Shown one piece after another: positions 3,830 through 26,061 of a stretch of DNA of 64,000 bases. The notes under the pieces are model-generated. The model was not told the origin of the DNA. It saw only the letters and a list, made by a program, of their open reading frames with translations, and searched no databases. The stretch comes from Microbacterium sp. LWO14-1.2. Its GTDB lineage: Bacteria > Actinomycetota > Actinomycetes > Actinomycetales > Microbacteriaceae. Made by a program: the position numbers and the translations under genes. Every line of letters begins with the position of its first letter. Position 1 is the stretch's first letter. The DNA lies in assembly GCF_038397715.1 (NCBI RefSeq), contig NZ_CP151633.1, forward strand, positions 434,001 to 498,000, in the 5' to 3' direction.

Positions 3830-4099
3830 ATGTCCTCGCACCTGGGTGAGAACCACCGCAAGACACTCCGTCAGATCACCGCGCACCCGACGAGCAGCAA
3901 CGTCGAATGGCACGACGTCCTGTCCCTGCTCCGGGCTGTTGGAGATGTCACCGTCGAGCACAACAGCAAGGTCAAGGTCACGGTGGGCACCGAGACCATC
4001 GTGGTGTCACCTCCTCGGCAGAAGACCGTCGACGAGGACCTTCTCCTCGAGCTACGCCACCTTCTCCGCGCTGCCGACTACGCACCCGCCAACAACTGA
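3830..4099 (+). CDS. Small conserved-type protein of unknown function
   Basis: An 89-residue protein with no signal peptide or membrane segment. The middle holds HPTSSNVEWHDVLSLL and an alternating charged and beta-strand stretch (VEHNSKVKVTVG), ending in a leucine-rich helix. The layout resembles small actinobacterial proteins with an alpha-beta-beta-beta-alpha fold, such as the HicA-like double-stranded RNA-binding fold, but no catalytic histidine motif can be assigned. It is followed 20 bases later by another small gene. The function is not known. Confidence 0.6.
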   Translation: MSSHLGENHRKTLRQITAHPTSSNVEWHDVLSLLRAVGDVTVEHNSKVKVTVGTETIVVSPPRQKTVDEDLLLELRHLLRAADYAPANN

Positions 4100-10596: not shown

Positions 10597-10617
10597 GTGC
10601 ACAATTGAATTGTGTAC
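10597..10617. promoter_or_regulatory. OhrR-type operator
   Basis: The core ACAATT-G-AATTGT (10601-10613) is a perfect palindrome, extending to 10-bp arms with one mismatch. It closely resembles the TACAATT/AATTGTA operator known for Bacillus OhrR. It overlaps the -10 region of the ohrR gene, so binding would repress its own transcription. Confidence 0.8.
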
Positions 10618-10620
10618 GGT
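10615..10620 (+). promoter_or_regulatory. Putative -10 of leaderless ohrR transcript
   Basis: TACGGT, 6 bases before ATG 10627, partly covered by the operator palindrome. Confidence 0.5.
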
Positions 10621-10626
10621 AGATGT

Positions 10627-11088
10627 ATGGCCGTGACCGATGAGATGGTGTGCTTCTCGCTGTACTCCGCCGCCCGCGCGACCACGCAGGCGTACCGCTC
10701 GCTGCTCGCACCCTGGGGCCTCACCTACCCGCAGTACCTCGTGCTCGCGATCCTCTGGAACGAGGGCGAGCAGAGCGTCGGCGCGCTGGGAGAGGCGATG
10801 CAGCTCGACTCCGGCACGCTGTCTCCCCTCGTCCGTCGACTGGAGCAGGCGGGCTACGTCACGCGCGCCCGCGGCGCCGACGACGAGCGCGTGGTGCTCG
10901 TGCGTCTCACCGACGCCGGACTCGCCCTGCGGGCCGAGGTCGCGCCGGCCCGAGCCACCGTCGCCGAGCTCGCCGGGATGGCCGACCCCGAGCACCGCCA
11001 GCGCCTCATCGCGGAGCTGCGCGAGCTCACGGCCCTGCTCCAAGGCGTGACCGATCACGAGCACGCGCGCGCGGCGGCACGCGACTGA
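10627..11088 (+). CDS. ohrR: MarR-family organic-peroxide sensor OhrR
   Basis: A 153-residue MarR-type winged-helix repressor. The N-terminus has the OhrR signature VCFSLYSAARATTQAYRSLL with the redox-sensing Cys9; no other cysteine exists, so it is the one-cysteine type as in Bacillus. The recognition region is LDSGTLSPLVRRLEQ, followed by the wing RARGADDERVVLVRLT. Oxidation of the cysteine by organic hydroperoxides is expected to release it from the palindrome in its own promoter and switch on ohr 75 bases downstream. ATG 10627 is preferred over GTG 10612. Confidence 0.92.
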   Translation: MAVTDEMVCFSLYSAARATTQAYRSLLAPWGLTYPQYLVLAILWNEGEQSVGALGEAMQLDSGTLSPLVRRLEQAGYVTRARGADDERVVLVRLTDAGLALRAEVAPARATVAELAGMADPEHRQRLIAELRELTALLQGVTDHEHARAAARD

Positions 11089-11163
11089 CTCCGCGCTCTG
11101 CGCCGCACCCGCCGGACCACGGGACCGCACACCAGGACCGCACAACAGGAAGGAGTCCACACG

Positions 11164-11586
11164 ATGGACGCTCTCTACACCGCCGAGGCACTCGCCACCG
11201 GAGCAGGACGCGACGGTCGCGTCGTGACCCAGGAGGGCGCGCTCGCCCTCGACCTCGCCATCCCGAAGGCGATGGGAGGCAGCGGCGCGGGCGCCAACCC
11301 CGAGCAGCTGTTCGCCGCCGGCTACGCCGCCTGCTTCCACTCCGCACTGCAGTCCGTGGCCCGCAGCCAGAAGGTCGCGATCACCGACTCCTCGGTCGGC
11401 GCGCGCGTGCACATCGGATCGAACGGCCAGGGCGGGTTCGGCCTCGCCGTCGAACTGGAGGTCGTCATCCCCGGACTCCCCCACGAGCAGGCGCAGGCTC
11501 TCGCCGACGCCGCCCACCAGGTCTGCCCCTATTCGAACGCGACCCGCGGCAACATCGACGTCGCGATCACCGTGTCGGACGACTGA
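11164..11586 (+). CDS. ohr: Organic hydroperoxide resistance protein Ohr
   Basis: A 140-residue thiol peroxidase of the Ohr/OsmC fold that reduces organic hydroperoxides. Both catalytic cysteines are in place: Cys57 in YAACFHSAL and Cys121 in VCPYSNATRG, along with the arginine/glutamate-containing N-terminal motif PEQLFAAGYAA. An AGGAAGGAG site precedes ATG 11164. It is cotranscribed with ohrR and probably with the reductase gene 46 bases on. Confidence 0.95.
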   Translation: MDALYTAEALATGAGRDGRVVTQEGALALDLAIPKAMGGSGAGANPEQLFAAGYAACFHSALQSVARSQKVAITDSSVGARVHIGSNGQGGFGLAVELEVVIPGLPHEQAQALADAAHQVCPYSNATRGNIDVAITVSDD

Positions 11587-12610: not shown

Positions 12611-12637
12611 ATCCTGATCCCGGTGAGGCGCGCACAA

Positions 12638-12658
12638 TTACTTGACACCGGTAATTAA
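12638..12658. promoter_or_regulatory. Sugar-locus operator 1 (GH95 operon)
   Basis: A 9-3-9 imperfect inverted repeat with a perfect left half TTACTTGAC and a right half matching GTCAAGTAA at 6 of 9 positions. It covers the TTGACA -35 box of the GH95 promoter. The same half-site recurs at 21055-21075 and 21157-21177. Confidence 0.6.
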
Positions 12659-12669
12659 TGCGCTACGCT
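12642..12669 (+). promoter_or_regulatory. Promoter of the GH95-esterase-ROK operon
   Basis: TTGACA (12642-12647), 16-base spacer, TACGCT (12664-12669), about 40 bases before the GH95 start. This is a good housekeeping-type promoter, with the operator on its -35. Confidence 0.65.
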
Positions 12670-12708
12670 GACGGTGCTGCCCGATTCGATCGACCACACC
12701 GGAGTGCG

Positions 12709-15129
12709 ATGAGCGACACCCTGCGCCTCACCTGGGATTCCCCGGCCTCCCGCTGGGACGAGGCCACTCCCCTCGGCAACGGGCGCATCGGCGCCATGGC
12801 CTACGGCGGATCGGGGCTCTACCGCCTCAACGACTCCACGGTCTGGTCGGGCACTCCGGACGGTCCGGCCCGCGCCCTCGACGAGGTCATCGCACGCGGA
12901 GCCGGGCCCGAGCGCCTGGCCGAAGTGCGCGCCGCTCTCGACGCGGGCGACGTGCGACGGGCGGAGGACCTCCTCATGGCCTTCGAGGGGCCGTACTCGC
13001 AGGAGTTCCTGCCGCTCGCCGACCTCCGCGTCGACATCCTCGGCGCGGACCCCGTCACTCCCGCACGCACCCTCGACATCGACGAGGCCTGCCTGCTCGA
13101 GGCGCTCTCCACCCCGCGCGGACGCGTGCGCCGACGGTCATGGGTGTCCGCACCCGCCCAGGCTCTGCTCGTCGAACTGACCTCGGAAGCCCCCTTCGAC
13201 GTCGACCTGGAGGTGTCCACTCCGCTGCAGGGCGACGCCGTCGAGCTGCACGGCGCTCTCGCGCTCGATGTGCGGATCCCCGTCGACGGCGCACCGCTGC
13301 ACGAGGCCTCGGTCGAACCGGGTCATCGCTACGCGGACGACGACGCCGACACCGAGGCCTACGACGCCTACGCTGCGGTCGTCGCGGCCATCGACTCCGA
13401 CGGCGAGATCGACGGCGCCCCCGGGCGCCTCGCCGTGCGCAGAGCCCGTCGACTGCTGATCGCCCTGTCCACATCGTCGCGCGCCGAGTCGTGGTGGGCC
13501 GACGCCGACGGGGACTGGCGGACCGCCTCACGCGAGGCGATCCGGGATCGCGCCACGGAGCGAGCGGATGCCGCGGTTCGCCGAGCCGCCGCAGAACTGC
13601 TCGCCGAGCACGTCGCCGACCGGCGGCGCGCGACCAGGGCGCGATTCGCGATCGGCAGTCGGCGTGAGGGGGCCTGGAGCGTCGACCGCGATGTGCTGCG
13701 CGGCGACGACCCTCGGCTGCGCGCGACCGTCGCCGCCGAGTACGGCATGTACCTGCTCGCCTCGAGTTCGCGCGCCGGGAGCCCGGCTGCCAACCTGCAG
13801 GGCATCTGGAACGCCGAACTCCGCCCGGCCTGGTCGTCGAACTACACGATCAACATCAACACCGAGATGAACTACTGGGCGGCCCCCGCGCTGCACGCCC
13901 CCGACGTCTTCGAACCGCTCCTCGCGCTCGTCGAGCACCTGGCGGACACGGGCGGGGAGGTGGCCCGGCGCCTGTACGGCGCCCGCGGGTGGGTCGCCCA
14001 CCACAACAGCGACGTCTGGGGCTGGACCCTCCCGGTCGGCAACGGCCGCGGAGCGGCCAGCTGGGCCATCTGGATGATGGGCGGCGTCTGGCTCACCCAC
14101 AATCTCTGGGACGCATACGAGTTCGGCGGCGACCGCGACCTGCTGCGGACGCGGATCTGGCCGGTCCTGCGCGGGGCGACGGAGTTCTGCCTCGACTGGC
14201 TCGTCGAGGGCCCAGACGGACTCCTCCGCACCTCTCCCTCCACCTCCCCCGAGAACTCCTACGTCGCCGCGGACGGCCGCCCCACCCCTCTCGGCCTCGC
14301 CGCCGCCTCCGACCTCGCCCTCATCGGCGCGCTCTTCACCAGGACGCTCCGCGCGATGTCCGACCTCGCGCTCGACGATGCGCTCGAGGCCGAGGTGCGC
14401 AGCGCACTCACCCGGCTCGCACCCGTGCGGATCGGAGCCGACGGGAGACTGCTGGAATGGGGCGCCGACGTTCCGGAGCACGAGCCGCTGCACCGCCACC
14501 TCTCCCCCGTCGTCGGCCTGTATCCGCTCGACAGCATCACGCCGGAGGCGACGCCGCAGCTCCTCCACGCCGCCGCACGGTTCCTCGACGCGCGCGGCCC
14601 CGGGGCGATGGGATGGTCATGGGCCTGGAAGGTCGCGCTGCGGGCGCGCGCCGGACAGGGCGACGTCGCGGCATCCCTCCTGGAGGAGGCGCTGACGCCG
14701 TTCGACGGCGATTCCTCGCGGCACGGCCCCGTGGACGGCTCCGAATGGGGCGGGCTTCTGCCGAACCTGTTCAGCACGCACCCGCCGTTCCAGATCGACG
14801 GCAACCTCGGATTCCCCGCGGCCATCACCGAGATGCTCGTGCAGAGTCACGCCGGCGAGATCCGGCTGCTGCCGGCGCTCCCGGAGGCCTGGCCCGAGGG
14901 CGACGTCCAGGGCATCGCCGTCCGCTCGGGGCTGGTCCTCGACCTGGCCTGGTCGGAAGGCCGCGTCACCGCGGCCACCGTGCGCAACCCCGGCGCCGAG
15001 GACCGGTCGATCCGCGTGCGCATCGGCGGGCAGACGATGCCGGTCGACGTGCCGGCGGGCGCAGCGCTCGCCCTCCCGCTCGCCCCCGCGCCCGATGCCG
15101 AGCACACGGAGGATGCGCATGCACGGTGA
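12709..15129 (+). CDS. Glycoside hydrolase family 95 (alpha-L-fucosidase/alpha-L-galactosidase)
   Basis: An 806-residue inverting glycosidase. The architecture is the GH95 one: N-terminal beta-sandwich starting WDEATPLGNGRIGAM, an (alpha/alpha)6 barrel and a C-terminal beta domain. Residues matching the bifidobacterial 1,2-alpha-fucosidase active site are present: Asn382 and Asn384 in YTININTEMNYW, Glu515 in SPSTSPENSY, Asp697 in FQIDGNLG. There is no signal peptide, so it acts on imported oligosaccharides. ATG 12709 gives a normal N-terminus. It leads the operon with the acetyl esterase and the ROK repressor. Whether it removes L-fucose or L-galactose cannot be decided. Confidence 0.88.
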   Translation: MSDTLRLTWDSPASRWDEATPLGNGRIGAMAYGGSGLYRLNDSTVWSGTPDGPARALDEVIARGAGPERLAEVRAALDAGDVRRAEDLLMAFEGPYSQEFLPLADLRVDILGADPVTPARTLDIDEACLLEALSTPRGRVRRRSWVSAPAQALLVELTSEAPFDVDLEVSTPLQGDAVELHGALALDVRIPVDGAPLHEASVEPGHRYADDDADTEAYDAYAAVVAAIDSDGEIDGAPGRLAVRRARRLLIALSTSSRAESWWADADGDWRTASREAIRDRATERADAAVRRAAAELLAEHVADRRRATRARFAIGSRREGAWSVDRDVLRGDDPRLRATVAAEYGMYLLASSSRAGSPAANLQGIWNAELRPAWSSNYTININTEMNYWAAPALHAPDVFEPLLALVEHLADTGGEVARRLYGARGWVAHHNSDVWGWTLPVGNGRGAASWAIWMMGGVWLTHNLWDAYEFGGDRDLLRTRIWPVLRGATEFCLDWLVEGPDGLLRTSPSTSPENSYVAADGRPTPLGLAAASDLALIGALFTRTLRAMSDLALDDALEAEVRSALTRLAPVRIGADGRLLEWGADVPEHEPLHRHLSPVVGLYPLDSITPEATPQLLHAAARFLDARGPGAMGWSWAWKVALRARAGQGDVAASLLEEALTPFDGDSSRHGPVDGSEWGGLLPNLFSTHPPFQIDGNLGFPAAITEMLVQSHAGEIRLLPALPEAWPEGDVQGIAVRSGLVLDLAWSEGRVTAATVRNPGAEDRSIRVRIGGQTMPVDVPAGAALALPLAPAPDAEHTEDAHAR

Positions 15130-16102
15130 GATCACGACGGTCGACGTCGCGACCACGCAGACCGAACCCGACGACTTCGACGCCTTCTGGGCCGACACGA
15201 TCGCGGAGACCCGCAGCCTGCCGCTCGATGTGACCGTGACGCCGCAGCCGACGCGGCTGACCCAGATCGACGTGCACGAGGTGAGCTTCCGGGGATTCGG
15301 CGGCACGCCGATCCGGGCGTGGCTCCGCGTCCCGCACGGCGCGACCGCGCCGCTGGCCGGCATGGTGCAGTTCTTCGGGTACGGCAACGGCCGAGGGCAC
15401 GCTCTGCGCGACCTGCGATGGGCGGCTGCCGGGTACGCGCACCTCGTCGTCGACGCGCGAGGGCAGGGTCACGGCGACACCGACGACGATCACGCCGACG
15501 GCGGACCGTCGGCCGGCGGCTTCCTCACCCGGGGCCTCCGGTCGCCCCGGGAGTACTACTACCGCCGCGTGTACGCGGATGCGGTACGGGCCGTGGATGC
15601 GCTGCGCTCCCTCGACCTCGTCGACCCTGCGCGCGTCGGCGTCGCCGGGGCGAGTCAGGGCGGGGGCATCGCGCTCGCGATCGCCGGCCTGGTCCCGGAC
15701 CTCGCCGCCGCCGTGATCCAGGCCCCCTTCCTCTGCGAGCTCGACCGCGCTGCGACGCTGAGTCGGGAGCATCCGTACTCCCTGCTGACGCAGTACCTCG
15801 CTGACCGGCGCGGCGACGCCGCGACCGCGCTCGACACCCTGCGGTACTTCGACGGCGTGAACCACGCCAAGCGTGCGACGGCTCCGGCTCTGCTGAGCAC
15901 GGGGATGCTCGACGGCATCGCCCCGCCCGAGACGGTGCTGCCGGCCTTCAGCGCGTACGGCGGGACGAAGACCGTGGTGCTGTGGCCGTACAACGGCCAC
16001 GAGGCGGGTGGAGACCTCGACGAGGAGAACGGCCTCGACTTCGCGGCTCGGCACCTCGCCGTCGACGCTCCCCTGTCCGCCGCCGCGGATTCGCTACGAT
16101 AG
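15119..16102 (+). CDS. Carbohydrate esterase family 7 acetyl esterase
   Basis: A 327-residue alpha/beta hydrolase of the CE7 (acetyl xylan esterase/cephalosporin C deacetylase) type. It shows FDAFWADT near the N-terminus, the family RGQG motif in VVDARGQGH, the nucleophile elbow GASQGG, Asp in GMLDGIAPPE and His in NGHE. ATG 15119 sits 6 bases after GGAGG and overlaps the end of GH95 by 11 bases; ATG 15113 is an alternative. It is cytoplasmic, so it probably deacetylates imported sugars before or after the glycosidases act. Confidence 0.88.
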   Translation: MHGEITTVDVATTQTEPDDFDAFWADTIAETRSLPLDVTVTPQPTRLTQIDVHEVSFRGFGGTPIRAWLRVPHGATAPLAGMVQFFGYGNGRGHALRDLRWAAAGYAHLVVDARGQGHGDTDDDHADGGPSAGGFLTRGLRSPREYYYRRVYADAVRAVDALRSLDLVDPARVGVAGASQGGGIALAIAGLVPDLAAAVIQAPFLCELDRAATLSREHPYSLLTQYLADRRGDAATALDTLRYFDGVNHAKRATAPALLSTGMLDGIAPPETVLPAFSAYGGTKTVVLWPYNGHEAGGDLDEENGLDFAARHLAVDAPLSAAADSLR

Positions 16103-16124
16103 CCGACACGAACCGAAGGATCTG

Positions 16125-17291
16125 ATGGATCACGACACAGCCGCGCGCACCACTCTCATCCGCTCGGCGTCCGACGCCGGTTCGCGGGTGTTCGAGACGA
16201 TCCTCACGCGCAGCCCCATCAGCCGCATCGACATCGCCCGCCAGACGGGCCTCTCCCAGGCCGCCGTGACCAAGGCGGTCGCCCCGCTCGTCGCCGCGGG
16301 ACTCGTCGACGCCCCGCCCGCCTCGCACCGCGACGGCACCCCCGGCCGACCGGTCAGCCCCGTGTCGATCGTGCTCGAGTCGATGGTCATGATCGGCGTC
16401 AAGGTCAACGTCGACGAGGTGATCGCGGTGGCCACCGACCTCGCCACGACGATCCTCGCGAGTGAGCGCCGCGCGCTCCCCGCCGACGACCCGCACACCG
16501 TGCTCGACGCCATCGTCGAGGTCGTCGCCGCTCTCGAGGGCGAGCTGGGCGACAGCGTCTCGGCGATCGCCGGTATCGGCGTCTCGGTGTCCGGCGACGT
16601 CGATACAGCGACCGGCATGGTGCGGGAGTCGAACATCATGGGCTGGGCCGACGTGCCCTTCGCCGACCTCCTCGCCCAGCGCGTCCCGTGGCCCGTCACC
16701 CTCGAGAACGACGTCCACGCCCTCACGATCGGCGAGCACTGGTTCGGGGTCGGCCTCGGCACGGCATCCTTCGCGATGGTCACGATCGGCCGCGGCATCG
16801 GCAGCGGCCTGCACCTGAACGGCGAGGTGGTCAGCGGCGCGTTCGGCGTCGCCGGCGAGATCGGGCATCTGCCCCTCGCCGACCCTGCGCTGGTGTGCCC
16901 GTGCGGCCGCCGGGGCTGCGTCGAGGCCGCCGCATCGACGCCCGCGATCGAGTCGGCCGTCTCCGCCGCCCTCGGCCGCCCCGTCGCGATCGCCGAGGCC
17001 GTCGAGCTCGCGCACGCGGGCCAGCCGGAGGCGGATGCCGCGTTCCGCGAAGCCGCCCGCCTGATCGGCACCGCGATCGCCACCCTCGTGAATCTCACCG
17101 GACCCGAGGTCGTCATCATCGGCGGCGAGGGGGTGTCGAACTTCGATCTCTTCGAGAAGACCCTGCGCGACGCCTTCGAGGCGCACGCGTTCGGCGCGGC
17201 CGTGCGCTGCCGCATCGTCACCCGGCCGCACACCTTCGAGGACTGGGCCCGCGGCGCCGCCGCCGCCGCCATCCAGTCTCTCGTGCGCTGA
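16125..17291 (+). CDS. ROK-family transcriptional repressor
   Basis: A 388-residue protein with an N-terminal winged helix-turn-helix (ISRIDIARQTGLSQAAVTKA) fused to a ROK sugar-kinase-like domain. The zinc motif GEIGHLPL followed by CPCGRRGCVE is intact. The catalytic-type phosphate motifs are degenerate, as usual for the repressors. It is the last gene of the GH95 operon, 22 bases after the esterase. It is the natural candidate to bind the repeated TTACTTGAC operators, with a monosaccharide released by the locus enzymes as inducer; this is inference. Confidence 0.9.
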   Translation: MDHDTAARTTLIRSASDAGSRVFETILTRSPISRIDIARQTGLSQAAVTKAVAPLVAAGLVDAPPASHRDGTPGRPVSPVSIVLESMVMIGVKVNVDEVIAVATDLATTILASERRALPADDPHTVLDAIVEVVAALEGELGDSVSAIAGIGVSVSGDVDTATGMVRESNIMGWADVPFADLLAQRVPWPVTLENDVHALTIGEHWFGVGLGTASFAMVTIGRGIGSGLHLNGEVVSGAFGVAGEIGHLPLADPALVCPCGRRGCVEAAASTPAIESAVSAALGRPVAIAEAVELAHAGQPEADAAFREAARLIGTAIATLVNLTGPEVVIIGGEGVSNFDLFEKTLRDAFEAHAFGAAVRCRIVTRPHTFEDWARGAAAAAIQSLVR

Positions 17292-17350
17292 CCCCGTCGC
17301 CCGTCGACGGTCGGGCTCGCCGCGCATCGGCCGAACGAACGCGCACAGCA

Positions 17351-17385
17351 GGATGCGCGGGACGGATGATCCGTCCCGCGCATCC
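17351..17385. terminator. Bidirectional terminator between ROK and binding-protein genes
   Basis: Perfect 16-bp arms (17351-17366 and 17370-17385) with a 3-base loop, between convergent stops. It lacks a T-run. Confidence 0.85.
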
Positions 17386-17395
17386 GCTCAGGGGT

Positions 17396-19024
17396 TCAGA
17401 GCGCGTCGTACAGCTTCTGCTGCAGCTCCAGGTAGCGATCGACGCCGAGTCCCGCCAGGTCGTCGAGGTACGACTGCCATGCCCCGTCGTCGTCGATGTC
17501 GCGCTGACCGGTCACGAACTCCGCCTGCGCCTGCGTGATGTAGGTGGCGATGTTCGTCTGCAGCTCGGCGATCTCCGCTGAGGTGTCGGGGTCGGGCCAG
17601 AGCTTGTTGTCGGGGAACAGCAGGTCCTCATCGGGCGCGTACGGCTCGTACAGCTGCGAGGCCTCGAGAAGACGGCGCTCGTAGCCGTCGGGAGAGTAGA
17701 TGTCCTCCGGCACGACCTGCGAGTTGCGGTATTCGAGCGAGTCCCAGTACTGCCCCATCGAGCGCCAGGCCGCGTTCGACGTCTCGTCGTAGGTCAGCGG
17801 CTTGAACGTGGGCTCGAGCTCCGGGTCCAGAGCGACGTCGCCCTCTTCCGCCGGGACCCAGGCCTCGCCCTCGGGTCCCATCGCGCCGAGGCGGTCCCCC
17901 TCGTCGGTCACCAGGTAGTCGATGACCTTGATCGCCTTGATGCGCTCCTCCTCTGTCGACTTGTTCGTGAGGGCGAACATGCCGAGCGGGCTGACCTGTG
18001 ACCGGTAGGTGGCGAACTGCGTGCCGTCCGGACCCTTCACCGGCGCGACGGCGTCGTAGTGCGTGTCGCGGCCGTCGGGCGAGTCCGCCGTGACGATCTC
18101 GTACGGGTGCAGCACGGCGGCGGCGCCGAGGATCTCGGCATCCGCGTTGTCGCCGAGAGCGCGCAGCGCCTCGCCGTTCTGCGTGAAGGATGCCGTGTCG
18201 ACCAAGCCCTCGTCAGCGAGCGAGGCGATGTACTGCAGTCCGGCACGCCAGCCGTCAGAGGTCGCCGAGAGCTCGACCTTGCCGTCGTCCATCACCATCG
18301 GCGGCGGGCTCGACGGGCTGCCGTACGGCGCGTACGCGAACGCGTTCATGAAGTAGTTGATGACGGGCTCACCGGACGAGGCGCTGAGCGGGATCTCGTC
18401 GGCCTTGCCGTTGCCGTTCGGGTCGTCGTTCTTGAATGCCCGCAGCACCTCGCGGAGCTCTTCCGTGGTCGTCGGCTGCTCGAGTCCGAGCTTGTCGAGC
18501 CAGGTCGTGTTCATCCACAGCTTCGAGGGGTAGCTGCAGTGGAAGCACTCGGTGAACTGGGTGATCGCGTAGATGTGACCGTCGGGCGCGGTGACCGACT
18601 GCTCCCAGTCGGGCTTCTCCTCGAAGCGCTTCTTGAGGTTCGGCGCGTACTCGTCGATGAGGTCCCCGAGCGGCACGAGCACGCCCTGCTGGCCGTACTT
18701 GAGCACCTCACTGCGCGAGAACGCATCGACCCACGGCACGAGGAAGTACGCGTCGGGGTAGTCGCCGCTCGCGAGCGAGACCTGGCGCTTCTCGCCCGCG
18801 ACGCTGCCGTCGTAGGTCGTCGTCTGCCAGTCGAAGTCGATGTCGAATTTCTTCTCGAGCAGCTGGGTGAACTCGTTGTCCTCGAGCGAGCCGTTGTCGC
18901 CCTGCGGGCCGAACGCGACGAGCTGGCCGTTGTCGTCGCTCGGCGACGTGCAGGCGGCGAGCGCCAGCCCCGTCGCGACGACGGTGACGGCGGCGATCGC
19001 ACGCCGTGTGTTGCGGTGTGTCAT
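17396..19024 (-). CDS. Carbohydrate ABC transporter substrate-binding lipoprotein (LplA/family 1 type)
   Basis: A 542-residue extracytoplasmic solute-binding protein. The signal peptide ends in the lipobox LALAAC with lipid-anchored Cys25. The length and the SLEDNEFTQLLEKKFDIDFDW start match the LipO/LplA branch that binds oligo- or polysaccharide fragments. It is the last gene of the three-gene importer operon, 63 bases after the second permease, with an AGGAGAT site. The ligand is probably an acetylated or galactosylated/fucosylated oligosaccharide, judged by neighbours only. Confidence 0.9.
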   Translation of the reverse strand: MTHRNTRRAIAAVTVVATGLALAACTSPSDDNGQLVAFGPQGDNGSLEDNEFTQLLEKKFDIDFDWQTTTYDGSVAGEKRQVSLASGDYPDAYFLVPWVDAFSRSEVLKYGQQGVLVPLGDLIDEYAPNLKKRFEEKPDWEQSVTAPDGHIYAITQFTECFHCSYPSKLWMNTTWLDKLGLEQPTTTEELREVLRAFKNDDPNGNGKADEIPLSASSGEPVINYFMNAFAYAPYGSPSSPPPMVMDDGKVELSATSDGWRAGLQYIASLADEGLVDTASFTQNGEALRALGDNADAEILGAAAVLHPYEIVTADSPDGRDTHYDAVAPVKGPDGTQFATYRSQVSPLGMFALTNKSTEEERIKAIKVIDYLVTDEGDRLGAMGPEGEAWVPAEEGDVALDPELEPTFKPLTYDETSNAAWRSMGQYWDSLEYRNSQVVPEDIYSPDGYERRLLEASQLYEPYAPDEDLLFPDNKLWPDPDTSAEIAELQTNIATYITQAQAEFVTGQRDIDDDGAWQSYLDDLAGLGVDRYLELQQKLYDAL

Positions 19025-19087
19025 TTCCGGAATCTCCTTTGACCGGTTCCAGGTGCGGGTGTGTGTGGTGGGTTCGAGGGGGCCGTG

Positions 19088-20065
19088 TCAGCCCTTGACG
19101 GCGCCGATCATGATGCCCTTGCTGAAGTACTTGGCGACGAAGGGGTAGGCGACGAGCATCGGGATGGTCGCGATGACGACGGTCGAGTACCGCAGCAGGT
19201 CGGCCAGCTCGCGCCGCCGCAGCTGCTCGGCGACGTCACCGCCGCCGCCGGCGTCGTTGAGGATGAGGAGGCCCCGCAGCACGAGCTGGAGCGGCTGCAG
19301 GTCGGCGTCGCGCAGGTACAGCAGGGCGTCGAAGTACGAGTTCCACTGCATGATCGCGTACATGAGGGCGATCACGGCGAGCAGGGGTTTGGCGAGCGGC
19401 ACCACGATCGTCCACAGGATGCGGAGTTCCGATGCCCCGTCGAGCTGCGCGGCCTCGTACACCTCGTCGGGGACGGAGGAGCGGAAGTAGACGATCGCGA
19501 TGATGACCTGCCAGACGCCGATGGCGTTGGGGAGCAGCATCGACCAGCGGGTGTCGAGCAGGCCGAGGGACTGCACCACGAGGTACATCGGGATCACGCC
19601 GCCGGTGAAGAGCATCGTGAAGACCACTCCGCCGGTGATCACCTTCCGGCCGAAGAGCTGCGCCCGTGAGAGCGGGTACGCGATGGCGACCGTGCCCACC
19701 ACGCTGATGAGCGTGCCGACGACCGTGTAGAAGACGGAGTTGCCGAAGCCGCGCAGGATCGCCGGGTTGCCCAAGGCCTCCGCATAGCCGCGGACGGTGA
19801 AGTCGACCGGCCAGAACAGCACCCGACCCGACGACACGGCCTGAGGGCTCGACAGCGAGCTGGCGACGATGTTCAGCAGCGGGAGCAGGACCACGAGCAG
19901 GAAGACGGACAAAAGGATGTACGCGGCGACCACGAAGACGCGGTCCGCTCTCGTCTCCTTGACCTTGACGCCTCGAGCGAGCGGGTCGCGCCTCGGCCGG
20001 CGTTTCCTGTTCTCGGCGACGACGATCTCCTCGGTGAGGAGCGCCTCGGTGTTGATCGCGGTCAC
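19088..20065 (-). CDS. Carbohydrate ABC transporter permease (LplC/MalG type)
   Basis: A 325-residue inner-membrane subunit with six hydrophobic helices. The cytoplasmic EAA loop reads EVYEAAQLDGASELRILWTIVVPL, in short EAAxLDGA, which docks the ATPase. GTG 20065 is used in a GTGA overlap with the stop of the first permease, indicating translational coupling. Longer upstream reading frames overlap that gene and are artefacts. No ATPase gene is present in the locus, so a shared MsmK/UgpC-like ATPase elsewhere must power the importer. Confidence 0.9.
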   Translation of the reverse strand: MTAINTEALLTEEIVVAENRKRRPRRDPLARGVKVKETRADRVFVVAAYILLSVFLLVVLLPLLNIVASSLSSPQAVSSGRVLFWPVDFTVRGYAEALGNPAILRGFGNSVFYTVVGTLISVVGTVAIAYPLSRAQLFGRKVITGGVVFTMLFTGGVIPMYLVVQSLGLLDTRWSMLLPNAIGVWQVIIAIVYFRSSVPDEVYEAAQLDGASELRILWTIVVPLAKPLLAVIALMYAIMQWNSYFDALLYLRDADLQPLQLVLRGLLILNDAGGGGDVAEQLRRRELADLLRYSTVVIATIPMLVAYPFVAKYFSKGIMIGAVKG

Positions 20066-21033
20066 CACAGTCCGTTCCCCGTCACTCGCTTGGACACCGT
20101 GTTCACCACGAGCAGCAGCACGAGGCTGATGACGGCGTTGAAGAGTCCGATCGTCGCCCCGAGACTGAAGTTCGCATTGAGGATGCCCGTCTTGTACACG
20201 TACGTCGGGATGATCTCGGAGGTCGAGAGGTTGAGCGCGTTCTGCAGGAGGAACGCCTTCTCGAACCCGATCGCCATGATGTTGCCCACTCCGAGGATCA
20301 GGATGATGGATGCCGTGGGCAGCAGCGCCGGGATGTCGACGTTCCAGATCTTCTGCAGCCGGGAGGCGCCGTCGATCTTCGCCGCCTCGTAGAGCGAGGT
20401 GTCGACCGAGGCGAGGGCGGCGAGATAGATGACGGCGGAGTATCCGGTCGTCGTCCAGATGTCGGTCGCGACGTAGATGTGGCGGAAGAAGTCCGCGTCG
20501 GCGAGGAGATCGACCTGACCGGCGCCGAAGAAGCTGAAGGTCCGCCCCAGCAGCCCGACCCGGGGCGAGAGCAGCAGGATCGTCATCGACACCACGACCA
20601 CCGTGGAGATGAAGTACGGCGCGTAGGTGACCAGCTGAACCGTCCGGCTGAAGAACTTCAGCCGGACCTCGTTCAGTGCGAGGGCGAGGATGATCGGCAG
20701 CGGGAAGCTCGCGATGAGCGTGTAGCCGGCGAGGAGGAACGTGTTGCCGACGAGCCGGGGGAAGACCGGGTTGCGGAACAGGTTCGCGAAGTTGTCGAAG
20801 CCCACCCAGGGGCTCCCCCACACGCCGTCGATCGGGTTGTAGTTCTTGAACGCGATGACCGCGTTGGCCATCGGCACATAGCGGAAGACGATGAACCAGA
20901 CGATGGGCACGAGGAGCAGCAGGTAGAGCTGCCAGTAGCGGCGCAGGCTGCGGCGGAATCGTGCGCGTATCGAGGTTCGTCGGCCGGTCGGGGCGACCGC
21001 CGTCGGTGGTGCGTGCTCAGCACTGAGCTTCAT
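20062..21033 (-). CDS. Carbohydrate ABC transporter permease (LplB/MalF type)
   Basis: A 323-residue partner permease and first gene of the importer operon. It has a positively charged N-terminus, six helices and the EAA loop LYEAAKIDGASRLQKIWNV. NYNPIDGVWGSPWVG is typical of the LplB branch that transports complex oligosaccharides. ATG 21033 is preceded by GGGAGGG. Its promoter region holds operator 2 (21055-21075), facing the GH36 promoter about 80 bases away. Confidence 0.9.
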   Translation of the reverse strand: MKLSAEHAPPTAVAPTGRRTSIRARFRRSLRRYWQLYLLLLVPIVWFIVFRYVPMANAVIAFKNYNPIDGVWGSPWVGFDNFANLFRNPVFPRLVGNTFLLAGYTLIASFPLPIILALALNEVRLKFFSRTVQLVTYAPYFISTVVVVSMTILLLSPRVGLLGRTFSFFGAGQVDLLADADFFRHIYVATDIWTTTGYSAVIYLAALASVDTSLYEAAKIDGASRLQKIWNVDIPALLPTASIILILGVGNIMAIGFEKAFLLQNALNLSTSEIIPTYVYKTGILNANFSLGATIGLFNAVISLVLLLVVNTVSKRVTGNGLW

Positions 21034-21054
21034 GTTCGCCCTCCCGGGGCAGGA

Positions 21055-21075
21055 TTACTTTACGTCGTAATAAAA
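21055..21075. promoter_or_regulatory. Sugar-locus operator 2 (importer operon)
   Basis: TTACTTTAC, GTC spacer, then GTAATAAAA: a 9-3-9 repeat whose left half matches TTACTTGAC at 8 of 9 positions. On the minus strand it overlaps and follows a probable -10 (TTTTAT), with TTGCGA 17 bases further upstream. Confidence 0.55.
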
Positions 21076-21156
21076 TCACGACCTCCCGCAAATCGCAACG
21101 ACGATTTTCGCATCGCCGATTTCGCCGGCGTGCTTGCGCCTGCTTCGCGGACGTGG

Positions 21157-21177
21157 TTTATTGACGATGTCAAGTAA
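21157..21177. promoter_or_regulatory. Sugar-locus operator 3 (GH36 promoter)
   Basis: TTTATTGAC, GAT spacer, then GTCAAGTAA: the right half is a perfect match, the left differs at two positions. It overlaps the probable -10 (TTTATT at 21157, 17 bases after TTGCGC) and extends over the start point, 20 bases before the GH36 gene. Confidence 0.6.
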
Positions 21178-21197: not shown

Positions 21198-23405
21198 ATG
21201 ACTTCCCGTGTCGACGCCGTCGTCGCACTCCGCGCCGCAGGCGCCTCCCTCGTCATCCAGCTCGCCGCGCCGATCCCGCGCATCCTCCACTGGGGCGCCG
21301 ACCTCGGCGCGATCGATCAGGCGACGGCATCCGCCCTCGAACTGACCTCCGGGCCGGCTCAGCTCAACAACTCCCCCGACGTCCCGCGCACCTTCTCCGC
21401 CCTCCCGACCGAGTTCGAGGGCTGGTCGGGCACACCCGCCATCGCCGGCAACGCGCAGGGTAGGGCGACCACTCCCCGTCCGCGCCTCGTCGCCCACGAG
21501 ATCGAGACGAGCGACCCGATGCGCGGAGGTCGAATCGCCCTCGAGTTCGAGGACTCGGTGACCGGCCTGCGCACGACTCTCCGCTACCACCTCGACGAGT
21601 ACGGCGTCCTCGCTGTGGACACCACGATCGTGCGGGATGCCGGGCTCAGTCCGCGCATCTCGAACGCGCCGTACACGCTCGACGGCGTCGTCGCGCTGCT
21701 GCCGCTCCCCGAGCGGGCGGCCGAGATCCTCGACTTCACGGGCAAGTGGTGCCGTGAGCGCTCCCCGCAGCGGATGCCGTTCGCCTTCGGCACACACCTC
21801 CGTTCCGCTCACCGCGGCAAGCCGGGCCACGACTCCCCGTTCCTGCTCGCCGCCGGCACGCCGGGCTTCGGTTTCGGGCACGGCGAGACGTGGGCCGTGC
21901 ATCTCGCGTGGTCGGGCGAGCAGCGCTACCTCGCCGAGCGACTGACCGAAGGCGCCGGCGCGTTCTCCTCGGTCATCGGCGCGGGTGAGGAGCTGCACTC
22001 CGGCGAGGTGATCCTCGAAGACGGCGACCGCTACGACGCGCCGACGGTCCTGTTCCTCTGGTCCGGCGCGGGACTCGACGGGCTGGCCGACCGGCTGCAC
22101 CGTCGTCTCCGCTCGCGCGCCGCGCACCCCCGTTCCTCCCGGCCACTCGTGCTCAACACCTGGGAGGCCGTCTACTTCGACCACGACCTCGATCGTCTCA
22201 CCGCCCTCGTCGAACGAGCGTCCGAGGTCGGCGTGGAGCGGATCGTGCTCGACGACGGCTGGTTCCGGGGGCGGCGCGAGGCAGACGCCGGACTCGGGGA
22301 CTGGTACGTCGACGAGCGGGTCTGGCCGCACGGGCTCGGTCCCCTGGTCGACCTCGTGCGATCGCACGGCATGCAGTTCGGGCTCTGGTTCGAACCCGAG
22401 ATGATCAACCTCGACTCCGACCTCGCGCGGGCGCATCCCGACTGGGTGCTCGGTCCTGCCGAGGGTCTGGGTCCGGCATCCCGCTCGCAGTACGTGCTCG
22501 ACATCGCCCGCCCCGAGGCGTTCGAGTACCTGCTCGATCGCATCGACACCCTCGTCCGCGAGCACGCGATCGACTACCTGAAGTGGGACCACAACCGCGA
22601 TCTGCTCGAAGCGGTGAGTCGTGCCGACGACGGCGACCGCCCGAGCGTCCACCGCCAGACCGTCGCCCTCTACCGGTTGCTGGACGAGCTGCGCCGACGG
22701 CATCCGACCCTCGAGATCGAGACGTGCTCCGGCGGCGGCGGACGCATCGACCTCGGCATCCTCGACCGCACCGACCGTGTCTGGGCCTCCGACTGCAACG
22801 ATCCCGTCGAGCGGGGGCGCATCGAGCGCTGGACCCGCCTTGTCGTGCCGCCGGAGCTGATCGGCTCGCACGTGGGCGCCGCGCGGTCCCACACCACGGC
22901 ACGCACGACCGACCTCGCGTTCCGGCTGACCACGGCGCTGACCGCGCACGCGGGCATCGAGCAGGATCTCACCGCTGTCGACGACGACGAGCTCGCCGTC
23001 ATCACCCGCTGGGCCGCGATGTACCGGGAGTTCCGCCCGCTGCTGCACAGCGGCCTCGTCGTGAACGCCGACCTCGTCGACGACGCGACGGCACTCACGG
23101 GTTTCGTCGCGCAGGACGGCTCGTCGGCGCTCTACACCTGGAGCCGCTTCACCACGTCGTCCTCCGGCCAGTCGGGGCGCGTGCGTCTGCCCGGCCTCGA
23201 CCGCGACGCGCAGTACGACGTGCGGATCCGCGAGGATCTCGGCGCTGCCAGCCGCCACCAGGGCGACGATCCGGCCTGGGTCGCCGAGGCCGTCACCCGC
23301 GCCGTGCGCCTGCCCGGCAGCGTGCTCGCGGAGGCGGGCGTGCCCCTGCCGACCCTGAACCCGCAGCAGTCGATGCTGATCGACCTCCGGCGCATCGACG
23401 ACTGA
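21198..23405 (+). CDS. Glycoside hydrolase family 36 alpha-galactosidase
   Basis: A 735-residue retaining alpha-galactosidase of the large GH36 type. It has an N-terminal beta-sandwich (EGWSGTPAIAGNAQGR), a barrel with nucleophile Asp464 in YLKWDHNRD, CSGGGGRIDLG, and acid/base Asp532 in WASDCNDP. There is no signal peptide, so it cleaves imported alpha-galactosides. ATG 21198 follows a CGGAGG site. It is divergent from the importer operon and shares its operator type; the secreted GH27 gene follows 46 bases later, probably on the same transcript. Confidence 0.93.
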   Translation: MTSRVDAVVALRAAGASLVIQLAAPIPRILHWGADLGAIDQATASALELTSGPAQLNNSPDVPRTFSALPTEFEGWSGTPAIAGNAQGRATTPRPRLVAHEIETSDPMRGGRIALEFEDSVTGLRTTLRYHLDEYGVLAVDTTIVRDAGLSPRISNAPYTLDGVVALLPLPERAAEILDFTGKWCRERSPQRMPFAFGTHLRSAHRGKPGHDSPFLLAAGTPGFGFGHGETWAVHLAWSGEQRYLAERLTEGAGAFSSVIGAGEELHSGEVILEDGDRYDAPTVLFLWSGAGLDGLADRLHRRLRSRAAHPRSSRPLVLNTWEAVYFDHDLDRLTALVERASEVGVERIVLDDGWFRGRREADAGLGDWYVDERVWPHGLGPLVDLVRSHGMQFGLWFEPEMINLDSDLARAHPDWVLGPAEGLGPASRSQYVLDIARPEAFEYLLDRIDTLVREHAIDYLKWDHNRDLLEAVSRADDGDRPSVHRQTVALYRLLDELRRRHPTLEIETCSGGGGRIDLGILDRTDRVWASDCNDPVERGRIERWTRLVVPPELIGSHVGAARSHTTARTTDLAFRLTTALTAHAGIEQDLTAVDDDELAVITRWAAMYREFRPLLHSGLVVNADLVDDATALTGFVAQDGSSALYTWSRFTTSSSGQSGRVRLPGLDRDAQYDVRIREDLGAASRHQGDDPAWVAEAVTRAVRLPGSVLAEAGVPLPTLNPQQSMLIDLRRIDD

Positions 23406-23451: not shown

Positions 23452-26061
23452 ATGAAGACCCATCGACAGCGCCGGCGAGCAGCCGCGGTCACGGCGGCGC
23501 TCGCCGCGACCGCGCTGGCCGTCGGCCTCGCACCCGGCGCCTCCTGGGCGGAGACGACCGCCCCGTCACCCGAGCCCACCGAGGCCTCCGCGCCGCCGAC
23601 CACGGCAGACCCGACGCCCCCGCCCGCGGAGGAGACGGCAGCCCCCGCGCCGTCCGCGACTCCGGCTCCGAGCGAGACCGCGCCGAGCCAGCCGGCCCCC
23701 GACGACGAGTCGGCGCGCCGGAGCGCAGGACAGGCGGCGCCACGCCAGGGCGTCGGAGTCTCGCCGCTCTCGGCATCCGGCCCCTATATGGGCTGGAGCA
23801 GCTACAGCATGCAGGTGTACGAGGGCGGGCAGTGGATCACCGCCGATCAGATCATCGCGCAGTCCGACGCCATGCACGACAAGCTGCAGAAGTTCGGCTA
23901 CGAGTACATCAACATCGACGCCGGATGGAACGGCGGGCAGGACGAGTACGGCCGCCCCATCCCCAGCGCGACGCTCTACCCCGACGGCCTCGACGCGGTG
24001 ATCGACCACATCCACGGCAACGGCCAGAAGGTCGGACTGTACCTGATCCCCGGCATGAGCCTCGAGACGGCGCAGAAGGCCCTCCCGATCTACAACGCCC
24101 CCGGCTGCACGACCGAGAACCTGCTCAAGCAGCCTCTCCAGCAGGGCGACTACTGGGGCTTCGGCTACCGACTCGACTTCGACAACCCCTGCACGACGAA
24201 GTACATCGACTCGATCGCCGACCTGCTCGGCGACTGGGGCGTCGACTTCATCAAGTTCGACAGCGTGACCCCGGGATCGGGCGTGAGCGATCTGTCGATG
24301 GACGCCCGCGAAGAGGTCGCGGCGTGGTCGCAGGCGCTCGCGCGCAACGACATCTGGTTCGAGCTGTCCTGGGCCGTCGACATCGACTACGCCGACTACT
24401 GGAAGGAGTACGCCGACGGCTGGCGCGTCGACTGGGACGTCGAGTGCTACTGCGGCGACGAGGCGCTGACCACGTGGGAGAACGTCGCACGCCTGTTCCC
24501 GCGTCTCTCAGACTGGTGGCGTCACGGCGGCCCCGCCGGGTGGAACGACCTCGACTCCCTCAACGTCGGCAACGGCAAGATGGACGGGCTCACCAAGGAC
24601 GAGCGCCGCACGGCCGCCACCCTGTGGGCCACGGCCGCCGCCCCGTTCTACCTCGGCAACGACCTCACGAACCTCGATCAGTACGGACTCGAGCTCGTGA
24701 CCAACCCCGAGGTCATCGCCGTCAACCAGGCGGGCGTCCCCGCCCGCCCCGTCTCGACGGCGACCAAGCACCAGGTCTGGTACTCGCTCGCCCCCGACGG
24801 GACCTACACGGTCGCGCTCTACAACCTCGGACGAGCGGATGCCGACATCACGGTCGACTTCGCCGACATCGGCCTCGACGGATCGGCGAAGGTCCGCGAC
24901 CTGTGGTCGCGGAAGAACCTGGGCACCGCCGACGGCAGCTTCACGGCCGAGAGCGTGCCGATCCACGGCGTGCGCCTGCTCAAGGTCACGCCGGCCAAGC
25001 AGTCGGTGCTGACGGTCAACGACGACGCCCTGCGCGTCACGTACGCCGGCGAGTGGACGCGCAACGGCGGCGCGGAGCTGCCGGCGACGTCGCAGCCGTT
25101 CACGGTCGCCGTCACCGACACCCCGGGAGGCGGTACCCCGAACCCGCCGGCCACCGGCGTCACGGTCACGCTGAACGACGACGACTCGCGGATCGCCTAC
25201 AGCGGGTCGTGGGGCTACAGCAGCAACCGCGGGCTCGGCGATCACGGAGACGACGTGCACTACGCCGAGGCGAACGGCGCGGCGTTCCAGTACACGTTCC
25301 AGGGCACGGGCATCCAGTACGTCACCGAGAAGCACGAGTCGCAGGGCGACGTCGAGGTGTACCTCGACGGGCAGCTCGTCGACACCGTGAGCACGTACCT
25401 CGATCCGTCCGACGGTCGACTGTCGCAGCAGGTCGTGTACAGCGTGTCCGACCTGCCGAGCGGCAGCCACACGCTGCGCGTCGTGAAGAAGTCCGGTTCG
25501 TTCATGCTCCTCGACAAGCTCGTCGTCACGCTCGACAGCCAGCTGAGCACGACGTCCGGCGCCTTCAACAAGGCGGCACCGGCCGACGTGTCGGTCGATC
25601 TGCTGCGCGACCCGAGCGCCCTGAGCTCGATCAGCGTCGGCGGAGGGGCGCTCGAGCGCGATGTCGACTACACGGTCGACGGGAGCACGGTGACGCTCGC
25701 TTCGGCGTACCTCGCCACCCTCCCGGTCGGAGACGCCGTGCTCGACTTCGCCTTCGCAGGCGACCACCTCGACGACGTGCACTCCACGACGACCGATGGC
25801 GACAGGGTGTCCTTCACGTTCCGTGGCACGGCGGTGTCGTGGATCGCGCCGAAGGGTCCCGATCAGGGCACGGTCGACGTGTACGTCGACGGCACGAAGG
25901 TCGAGACCGTCGACACCCATCACGCGACGCGGCTCACCTCGCAAAAGCTGTTCGCGGTCTCCGGACTGAAGGACAAGGAGCACACGATCGAGATCGTCAA
26001 GACCTCGGGCGACGTCCTCCGCACCGACGTCTTCGCCTACACGGTGAGGAAGGTCGGCTGA
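23452..26061 (+). CDS. Secreted multi-domain GH27 alpha-galactosidase
   Basis: An 869-residue exported enzyme. A signal peptide (cut near ASWA-ET, residue 33) leads into a Pro/Ala/Thr linker to about residue 80, then a GH27 barrel (about 105-430): YMGWSSYSMQ, YINIDAGWNGG, nucleophile Asp270 in DFIKFDS, probable acid/base Asp329 in WRVDWDVECY. After a small beta domain come two related C-terminal modules (about 570-700 and 745-869) with QYTFQGTGIQYV and SFTFRGTAVSWI, separated by an X2-like Ig stretch. These may bind polysaccharide. GH27 also contains beta-L-arabinopyranosidases, so the exact sugar is open. No sortase signal is seen. Confidence 0.9.
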   Translation: MKTHRQRRRAAAVTAALAATALAVGLAPGASWAETTAPSPEPTEASAPPTTADPTPPPAEETAAPAPSATPAPSETAPSQPAPDDESARRSAGQAAPRQGVGVSPLSASGPYMGWSSYSMQVYEGGQWITADQIIAQSDAMHDKLQKFGYEYINIDAGWNGGQDEYGRPIPSATLYPDGLDAVIDHIHGNGQKVGLYLIPGMSLETAQKALPIYNAPGCTTENLLKQPLQQGDYWGFGYRLDFDNPCTTKYIDSIADLLGDWGVDFIKFDSVTPGSGVSDLSMDAREEVAAWSQALARNDIWFELSWAVDIDYADYWKEYADGWRVDWDVECYCGDEALTTWENVARLFPRLSDWWRHGGPAGWNDLDSLNVGNGKMDGLTKDERRTAATLWATAAAPFYLGNDLTNLDQYGLELVTNPEVIAVNQAGVPARPVSTATKHQVWYSLAPDGTYTVALYNLGRADADITVDFADIGLDGSAKVRDLWSRKNLGTADGSFTAESVPIHGVRLLKVTPAKQSVLTVNDDALRVTYAGEWTRNGGAELPATSQPFTVAVTDTPGGGTPNPPATGVTVTLNDDDSRIAYSGSWGYSSNRGLGDHGDDVHYAEANGAAFQYTFQGTGIQYVTEKHESQGDVEVYLDGQLVDTVSTYLDPSDGRLSQQVVYSVSDLPSGSHTLRVVKKSGSFMLLDKLVVTLDSQLSTTSGAFNKAAPADVSVDLLRDPSALSSISVGGGALERDVDYTVDGSTVTLASAYLATLPVGDAVLDFAFAGDHLDDVHSTTTDGDRVSFTFRGTAVSWIAPKGPDQGTVDVYVDGTKVETVDTHHATRLTSQKLFAVSGLKDKEHTIEIVKTSGDVLRTDVFAYTVRKVG

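Follow-up and report, generated by a model that had tools for sequence, protein, structure and literature searches.

The window analysed in this study is a stretch of 64,000 nucleotides from the 3.78-Mb single-contig genome of Microbacterium sp. LWO14-1.2. It contains a sugar locus in which the genes of a GH95 glycoside hydrolase, a CE7-type acetyl esterase and a ROK-family regulator lie on the plus strand, an importer (a solute-binding protein and two permeases, 17396-21033) lies on the minus strand, and the genes of a GH36 and a GH27-type enzyme follow on the plus strand. Three 21-bp inverted repeats, named O1, O2 and O3, lie on the promoters of these three units and are predicted to be operators of the ROK protein. 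The features of the locus are:

12638..12658, unstranded: O1, predicted operator, TTACTTGACACCGGTAATTAA; covers the -35 element and spacer of the GH95-CE7-ROK promoter
12642..12669, plus strand: predicted GH95 promoter (TTGACA 12642-12647, 16 bases, TACGCT 12664-12669)
12709..15129, plus strand: GH95 glycoside hydrolase (Pfam PF22124, 8.2e-131)
15095..16102, plus strand: CE7-type acetyl esterase (AXE1; Pfam PF05448, 6.3e-83 over 15122-16102); the reading frame opens at 15095 and the precise start is uncertain
16125..17291, plus strand: ROK-family transcription regulator, final gene of the GH95 operon (Pfam ROK, 4e-56; orthologs)
17396..19024, minus strand: importer solute-binding protein (Pfam SBP_bac_1)
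19088..20047, minus strand: importer permease 2 (Pfam BPD_transp_1); partial translation, start codon uncertain
20062..21033, minus strand: importer permease 1, leading gene of the importer operon (Pfam BPD_transp_1)
21055..21075, unstranded: O2, predicted operator, TTACTTTACGTCGTAATAAAA; covers the -10 element and start of the importer promoter
21070..21098, minus strand: predicted importer promoter (TTGCGA 21098-21093, 17 bases, TTTTAT 21075-21070)
21134..21162, plus strand: predicted GH36 promoter (TTGCGC 21134-21139, 17 bases, TTTATT 21157-21162)
21157..21177, unstranded: O3, predicted operator, TTTATTGACGATGTCAAGTAA; covers the -10 element and start of GH36-GH27
21198..23405, plus strand: GH36 alpha-galactosidase family enzyme (Pfam PF02065, 2.6e-113)
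23452..26061, plus strand: GH27-type alpha-galactosidase with carbohydrate-binding modules (Pfam PF16499, PF17801, PF03442)

The letters of the three sites were read directly. O1 is TTACTTGAC-ACC-GGTAATTAA, O2 is TTACTTTAC-GTC-GTAATAAAA, and O3 is TTTATTGAC-GAT-GTCAAGTAA. The first-pass annotation of this DNA had placed three 21-bp sites at 12638-12658, 21055-21075 and 21157-21177, with half-site matches of 9/9, 8/9, and 9/9 plus 7/9 and a gap of 3 bases; the positions, the matches and the gap were all confirmed. It had also put the sites on the -35 element or on the -10 element and start point of three different units, and each site does overlap a predicted core promoter. O1 and O2 are lopsided, so the symmetry seen in the window alone is thin evidence, and the case therefore rests on comparison.

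At O1, 14 of the 21 site columns were identical in 16 sequences, versus 5 of the 77 columns outside the site. In the gap between the permease and GH36 genes, which holds O2 and O3, 39 of the 42 site columns were identical in eight sequences, versus 49 of 122 outside. The elements TTGAC and TANNNT of the GH95 promoter were kept in all 16 aligned sequences, with a spacer of 16 bases in the window versus 18 in the other 15, and TTGC and TTTATT of the GH36 promoter were kept in 8/8. The shared layout described earlier for the two divergent promoters (TTGCGA/TTGCGC, 17 bases, TTTTAT/TTTATT) is present in the window and its GH36 elements are kept; for the importer promoter, the -10 side is largely kept in relatives, but the -35 letters TTGCGA are not conserved.

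The motif common to the sites is approximately TTAMTTGAC-RNY-GTCAAKTAA. A matrix was built from 30 distinct sites, with the window and its nearest clade both excluded. The training sites were hand-picked among sites found via a window-derived consensus, and the independence of the matrix consists in the exclusion of the window clade from training. The matrix ranked O1-O3 top in the window (34.9, 31.8 and 31.4); the next separate position scored 1.8, a position overlapping O2 scored 4.0, and the best score in 60 simulated 64-kb windows was 11.1. The scores across 59 loci (1,206,569 positions) were bimodal, with 106 positions at or above 17 and eight between 9 and 17; the training sites fall within these scanned loci, and the window clade is absent from training. 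A sequence-only model was made from 21 sites in both orientations, with the window clade left out. It returned six matches genome-wide at E<=10, namely O1-O3 on both strands (150 of the 364 first-look candidates scored). At this threshold, predicted operators were found at linked catabolic and transport genes only, as in a local regulon of a single locus. The full dyad with at most 3 mismatches occurred at two places in the 3.78-Mb genome, 12638 and 21157, and its reversed control at none. A looser pattern fitted to O1-O3 gave six forward places in the genome (three of them O1-O3) versus four forward control matches; with a count so close to the control, loose patterns are uninformative alone.

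The earlier suggestion that a matrix scan should bring up no unrelated strong matches held in both the window and the genome. The look-alike G000:C1:920756-920776 (L170:1501-1521), TTTCTTGACGCTGACACGAAA, scored 17.8 in the matrix, was not returned by the model, lies upstream of a THUMP-like methyltransferase, and was rejected; similar letters are found in G075:C17 and G172:C27. This look-alike may be an unrelated conserved element. A plasmid similarity search with the O1 DNA gave nothing useful. Across the 295 genus genomes searched, the bare pattern with 3 mismatches matched at 38 places. By hand count, 25 of these fall at sugar loci of this type, including one unlinked GH36 and one GH97, and 13 fall elsewhere. 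Five of these 13 were inspected, and the remaining eight are in G075:C17, G152, G252, G234, G196, G172, G187 and G263. All five were rejected as regulon members. The place in G241:C2 lies between oxidoreductase-like and TetR-like frames (judged by eye), that in G062:C39 lies inside a reading frame, and those in G282, G012 and G286 are CTTGACA-N-TGTCAAG boxes, paired 38-45 bases apart, with none of the sugar-locus genes strongly matched in the surrounding 20 kb. Paired boxes of this form in the genus lie at 10001-10021 of L094, L095 and L096. The boxes are probably the operator of a different regulator.

A ROK match at E<=1e-40 was present in 131 of the 295 genus genomes. The identity to the window protein fell in steps: 75-100% in 22 genomes (its own included), 49-53% in nine, and 41% or less in the others among the matches listed. 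The comparison drew on 36 stretches around genus ROK matches or outlying sites, and a collection of named genomes supplied another 43 loci. ROK orthologs were found in Microbacterium, Leifsonia, Glaciibacter, Glycomyces, Promicromonospora, Asanoa, Catellatospora, Micromonospora and Nonomuraea, and the site accompanied the ROK gene across these nine genera. Conservation of the repeats in orthologous loci had been proposed as a check in the first-pass annotation, and the result was positive: 47 of the 49 scanned ROK-ortholog loci (58-100% identical) had at least one site scoring at least 17, as did 10/10 loci with an approximately 50% identical ROK. The two misses were L161, a contig of 3.7 kb, and L076, which ends before the GH36 gap. 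L076 is a 20-kb stretch of G223. G223 was rejected as a site-less ortholog, since a site before GH36 is seen both in L137, a stretch of that contig, and in the model search; the 49 include this contig twice, as L076 and as L137. Loci dropped from the count were L128, L129, L131-L134, L138-L141 and L165 (same contigs as genus loci, site seen in each), L166 and L169 (ROK truncated where the contig stops; in L169, a site precedes GH95), and L167 and L168 (30-37% ROK relatives without a strong site).

With one exception, the assigned sites precede GH36, GH95, GH27, GH97, importer or ROK genes. All 20 genus stretches with a window-type importer beside a ROK ortholog (L061-L075, L077-L081) had sites before both GH95 and the importer. 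When GH36 diverged from the importer (the window, L061-L066), it had its own site; when it diverged from GH95 (e.g. L067, L068, L071), the two shared the GH95 site. A second GH36 type (approximately 50% identical) carried a further class of site near ATACTTGACGTCATGAATTAA (L069, L070, L073, L079), and in G260 the second-type GH36 lies approximately 650 kb from the ROK gene and keeps a site of this class, which makes it an unlinked target. The site lies between GH36 and the approximately 50% identical ROK in L082, L085 and L086, and at 9930-9950 in L145 of Leifsonia aquatica, in the gap that separates GH36 (homology from 9889) from the divergent ROK gene (from 10001). The complete ortholog loci each had GH36 and/or GH95, and many had GH27; L145 had no GH95, and the stretches of L072 and L136 contained no GH36. 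GH97 was found in two of the approximately 50% identical relatives, L088 (G184; site 3874-3894) and L189 (G175; site 1488-1508), where a strong site lies approximately 35-52 bases before it, and GH97 may thus join the regulon of these ROK relatives. Some sites in distant genera are near-perfect palindromes, e.g. TTACTTGACAGTGTCAATTAA in Leifsonia.

Two observations concern GH27. In L066, a fourth site (13386-13406, 27.0), absent from the window, lies between GH36 and GH27, and GH27 there seems to have its own operator. In L063 (4013-6336, G125), the GH27 homology falls in two adjacent pieces, for which a frameshift, an error and a break in the alignment are possible causes.

Among named relatives, those closest to the window ROK protein come from Microbacterium strains (96% identical). 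Its ROK domain (PF00480, 4e-56) covers residues 90-383. The winged-helix matches MarR_2 and HTH_24 fall at residues 28-63, each slightly below the Pfam cut-off, and the N-terminus aligns with that of Mlc. The recognition helix GLSQAAVTK was unchanged in 29/29 sampled orthologs and similar in the approximately 50% identical group. A palindromic motif of the ROK-operator form, T-rich on one side and A-rich on the other, is found at the target promoters, and binding to it is predicted. ROK regulators carry a zinc-binding motif, CxCGxxGCxE, and a sugar motif, ExGH; the window protein has C258-P-C260-G-R-R-G-C265-V-E267 and E245-I-G-H248, and N195, D196, E245, G247, H248, C258, C260, C265 and E267 were present in 40/40 proteins. 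ROK sugar kinases carry the ATP phosphate motif DxGxT at the N-terminus. In the window protein, this motif is replaced by MIGVK (residues 89-93), so the ROK domain looks like a sensor, not a kinase. The kept sugar and zinc residues together with the lost kinase motif fit direct sensing of an unphosphorylated sugar, and from these residues we infer the internal sugar signal that had been proposed in the first-pass annotation. Mlc and NagC of E. coli and Lmo0178 of Listeria (Mlc and Lmo0178 with solved structures) align with the window protein over the helix-turn-helix and the ROK sensor. It is not a Mlc or NagC ortholog, being far under the NCBIfam equivalog cut-offs (143.5 versus 530 bits for Mlc, 141.1 versus 650 for NagC).

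Orthologs of permease 1 at 82% identity or more were found in 22 of the 295 genus genomes, and these are 21 of the 22 genomes with a ROK ortholog plus G201, whose ROK is approximately 52% identical. Permease 1 homologs away from a ROK gene (47-69% identical) gave 12 matches, eight with loci examined (L119-L126), and 0/8 had the site, the best score being 7.6.

The motif accompanies the ROK gene from one actinobacterial genus to another, and all three window sites overlap predicted core promoters. We are confident that O1-O3 would be the operators of the ROK protein (16125-17291), which would run a local repressor regulon over the three units, and the single ROK regulon put forward in the first-pass annotation is supported by the company that the site keeps. 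From these comparisons, we infer binding, repression and the effector as follows. A dimer or tetramer of the ROK protein would bind O1-O3 and block RNA polymerase at GH95-CE7-ROK, at the importer and at GH36-GH27, and would repress its own gene through O1. The importer would take up an oligosaccharide, from which the glycosidases would release sugar. The unphosphorylated sugar would then bind the ROK domain, the protein would leave the DNA, and the cluster would be induced. The presence of GH36, GH95, GH27 and GH97 suggests a signal of the galactoside type, and fucose, galactose and galactosides, which the first-pass annotation had listed for binding tests, are candidate effectors. The overlap of the sites with core promoters fits repression, as has been argued for the ROK repressor NagR (PMC9599254; for all papers cited here, statements refer to the excerpts available).

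A MarR-family gene and its neighbour lie to the left of O1:

10612-11088: MarR-family regulator gene, 1.5 kb left of O1
11164-11586: OsmC gene, next after the MarR-family gene

This MarR-OsmC pair (10612-11586) resembles an organic-peroxide resistance pair. Nine other frames of the window were scanned for a second regulator, and none encoded one.

Several points weigh against the ROK repressor regulon. The right halves of O1 and O2 match GTCAAGTAA in 6/9 and 5/9 positions, and a MarR-family gene is close to O1. The bare pattern is nonspecific in the genus, where its reversed control gave 50 forward matches by hand count, and it is the matrix and the context that give specificity. One strong site, L155:351 (26.4), past the distal end of GH36, has no assigned target. 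The position of the operators is compatible with activation too, and the ROK protein is a putative binder, named from sequence comparison. The motif could be real and bound by another protein, either the MarR-family protein or one encoded elsewhere, with the ROK protein as a passenger or kinase. Because ROK and GH genes almost always co-occur, linkage alone cannot name the binder. However, of 58 other loci, just six, all in the window clade, had a relative of the MarR-family gene, and 56 had the site, so the MarR-family protein was rejected as the general binder. No other regulator was recognised among the scanned neighbours of GH36 and ROK in L145, where two of the four downstream frames matched transport and nucleosidase families and two had no Pfam match. 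The site also accompanies the approximately 50% identical ROK proteins, which have different neighbours, and the window ROK has winged-helix matches and lacks the kinase motif. We consider another binder improbable.

The conserved letters might also be promoter elements, TTGAC of a -35 and TTTATT of a -10, misread as an inverted repeat where no operator exists. Every site overlaps a predicted -35 or -10 element, and RNA polymerase must account for part of the conservation. Yet the promoter element covered by the dyad differs among the three promoters, with both halves still kept, the TTA and TAA ends are largely kept, near-perfect palindromes are found in distant genera, and the importer homologs examined away from ROK have no dyad; this explanation is hardly credible. 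It is less far-fetched, although still unlikely, that the ROK protein is an activator, or a bystander glucose sensor for catabolite control, rather than a substrate-specific repressor. ROK regulators of both signs have been described (PMC9599254). Sites that overlap -35 and -10 elements and predicted start regions are in keeping with repression, and the single locus matched in the genome fits a local regulator.

NagR of Bifidobacterium longum subsp. infantis is a ROK repressor of human-milk sugar loci that acts from several palindromic operators; 10 of its 11 palindromes lie on a -10 or -35 element, and its plausible effectors are GlcNAc and its phosphates (PMC9599254). Its 11 operators are spread across many gene clusters, whereas the window ROK has three predicted operators in one locus. 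RafR of Bifidobacterium breve is likewise a ROK protein whose gene neighbours are GH36 and an ABC importer, and it is said to regulate the raffinose cluster (PMC4856308); RafR is also said to regulate the raffinose cluster in B. dentium (PMC12104195). In contrast to the window, no GH95, CE7 or GH27 is described for RafR in these excerpts, and the likeness is drawn from gene context. CsnR of Streptomyces lividans, also from an actinobacterium, is a ROK repressor of chitosanase genes, one of which has a palindrome spanning its start point (PMC3048496). It differs from the window ROK in sugar and target. RokB of Streptomyces coelicolor has one site with a T-rich left and A-rich right repeat, TTTGTTC-N11-GAACAAA; unlike the window operators, its sites are 28-31 bp long, and the five in the genome share a TVCVT centre and lack a perfect repeat (PMC4856308). 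Most RokB targets are non-sugar genes, unlike the predicted targets of the window ROK (PMC4856308).

Literature searches found nothing on Microbacterium ROK proteins with alpha-galactosidase, and the matches listed for the half-site string included no title on a ROK regulator. Literature on ROK with GH95 and GH36 was found for Bifidobacterium dentium only. A study of this motif and ROK was not found in print, papers under other licences, RegPrecise and supplements being outside the search. The type of control is well known; this would be an ordinary ROK repressor regulon and a fresh example of it. For a ROK regulator on which no study was found in the literature searched, the analysis supplies a predicted binding motif and set of targets, and it ties GH95, GH36, GH27 and two importer types (with GH97 in the approximately 50% identical relatives) to one kind of signal. 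The linked gene families point to a plant glycan of the galactoside type as substrate. The locus may also be a compact case of operators moving when a pathway swaps its transporter.

The top solved relatives of the window solute-binding protein were 5g5y and 5g5z, followed by AlgQ1 and AlgQ2 among others. Glaciibacter, Glycomyces, Asanoa, Promicromonospora and Nonomuraea have an alternative importer among the genes of the GH95-ROK row and a single site between this row and the divergent GH36, and this arrangement is also found in Leifsonia (L148, L149, L157), in metagenome loci (L150, L160) and in Microbacterium ureisolvens (L137). The permease of the alternative importer is 26-31% identical to permease 2 of the window. 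At the score used, no alternative importer was found in L145, L152, L153, L163 or L164. In three cases, Leifsonia virtsii (L158), its relative L159 and G201, the window-type importer lies next to another ROK and has a weaker site (20.1-25.5). These three ROK proteins form one clade (support 1.0), which joins the 29 orthologs (support 1.0) in a tree with L164q as the outgroup. We tentatively suggest, at somewhat less than an even chance, that Microbacterium of the window kind may have captured the importer of this sister ROK and lost its regulator, and that the window ROK took over, going from one operator to three. The takeover would have occurred because the operators of the two ROK proteins were near enough alike. 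Other orders of gain and loss are possible.

Three minor observations complete the description of the locus and its relatives. GH95 is the alpha-L-fucosidase/alpha-L-galactosidase family, and these activities are putative for the window enzyme. The GH36 and GH27 genes of the window are separated by 46 bases, and the GH27-type enzyme looks secreted, its N-terminus being judged by eye. In Micromonospora sicca (L164), another ROK gene (44%) lies beside CE7-like and GH36-like genes, with sites at 12629-12649 and 15934-15954 that are two copies of ATATTTAACTTCGTCAAGTAT, the second as the reverse complement; this looks like a further sister system.

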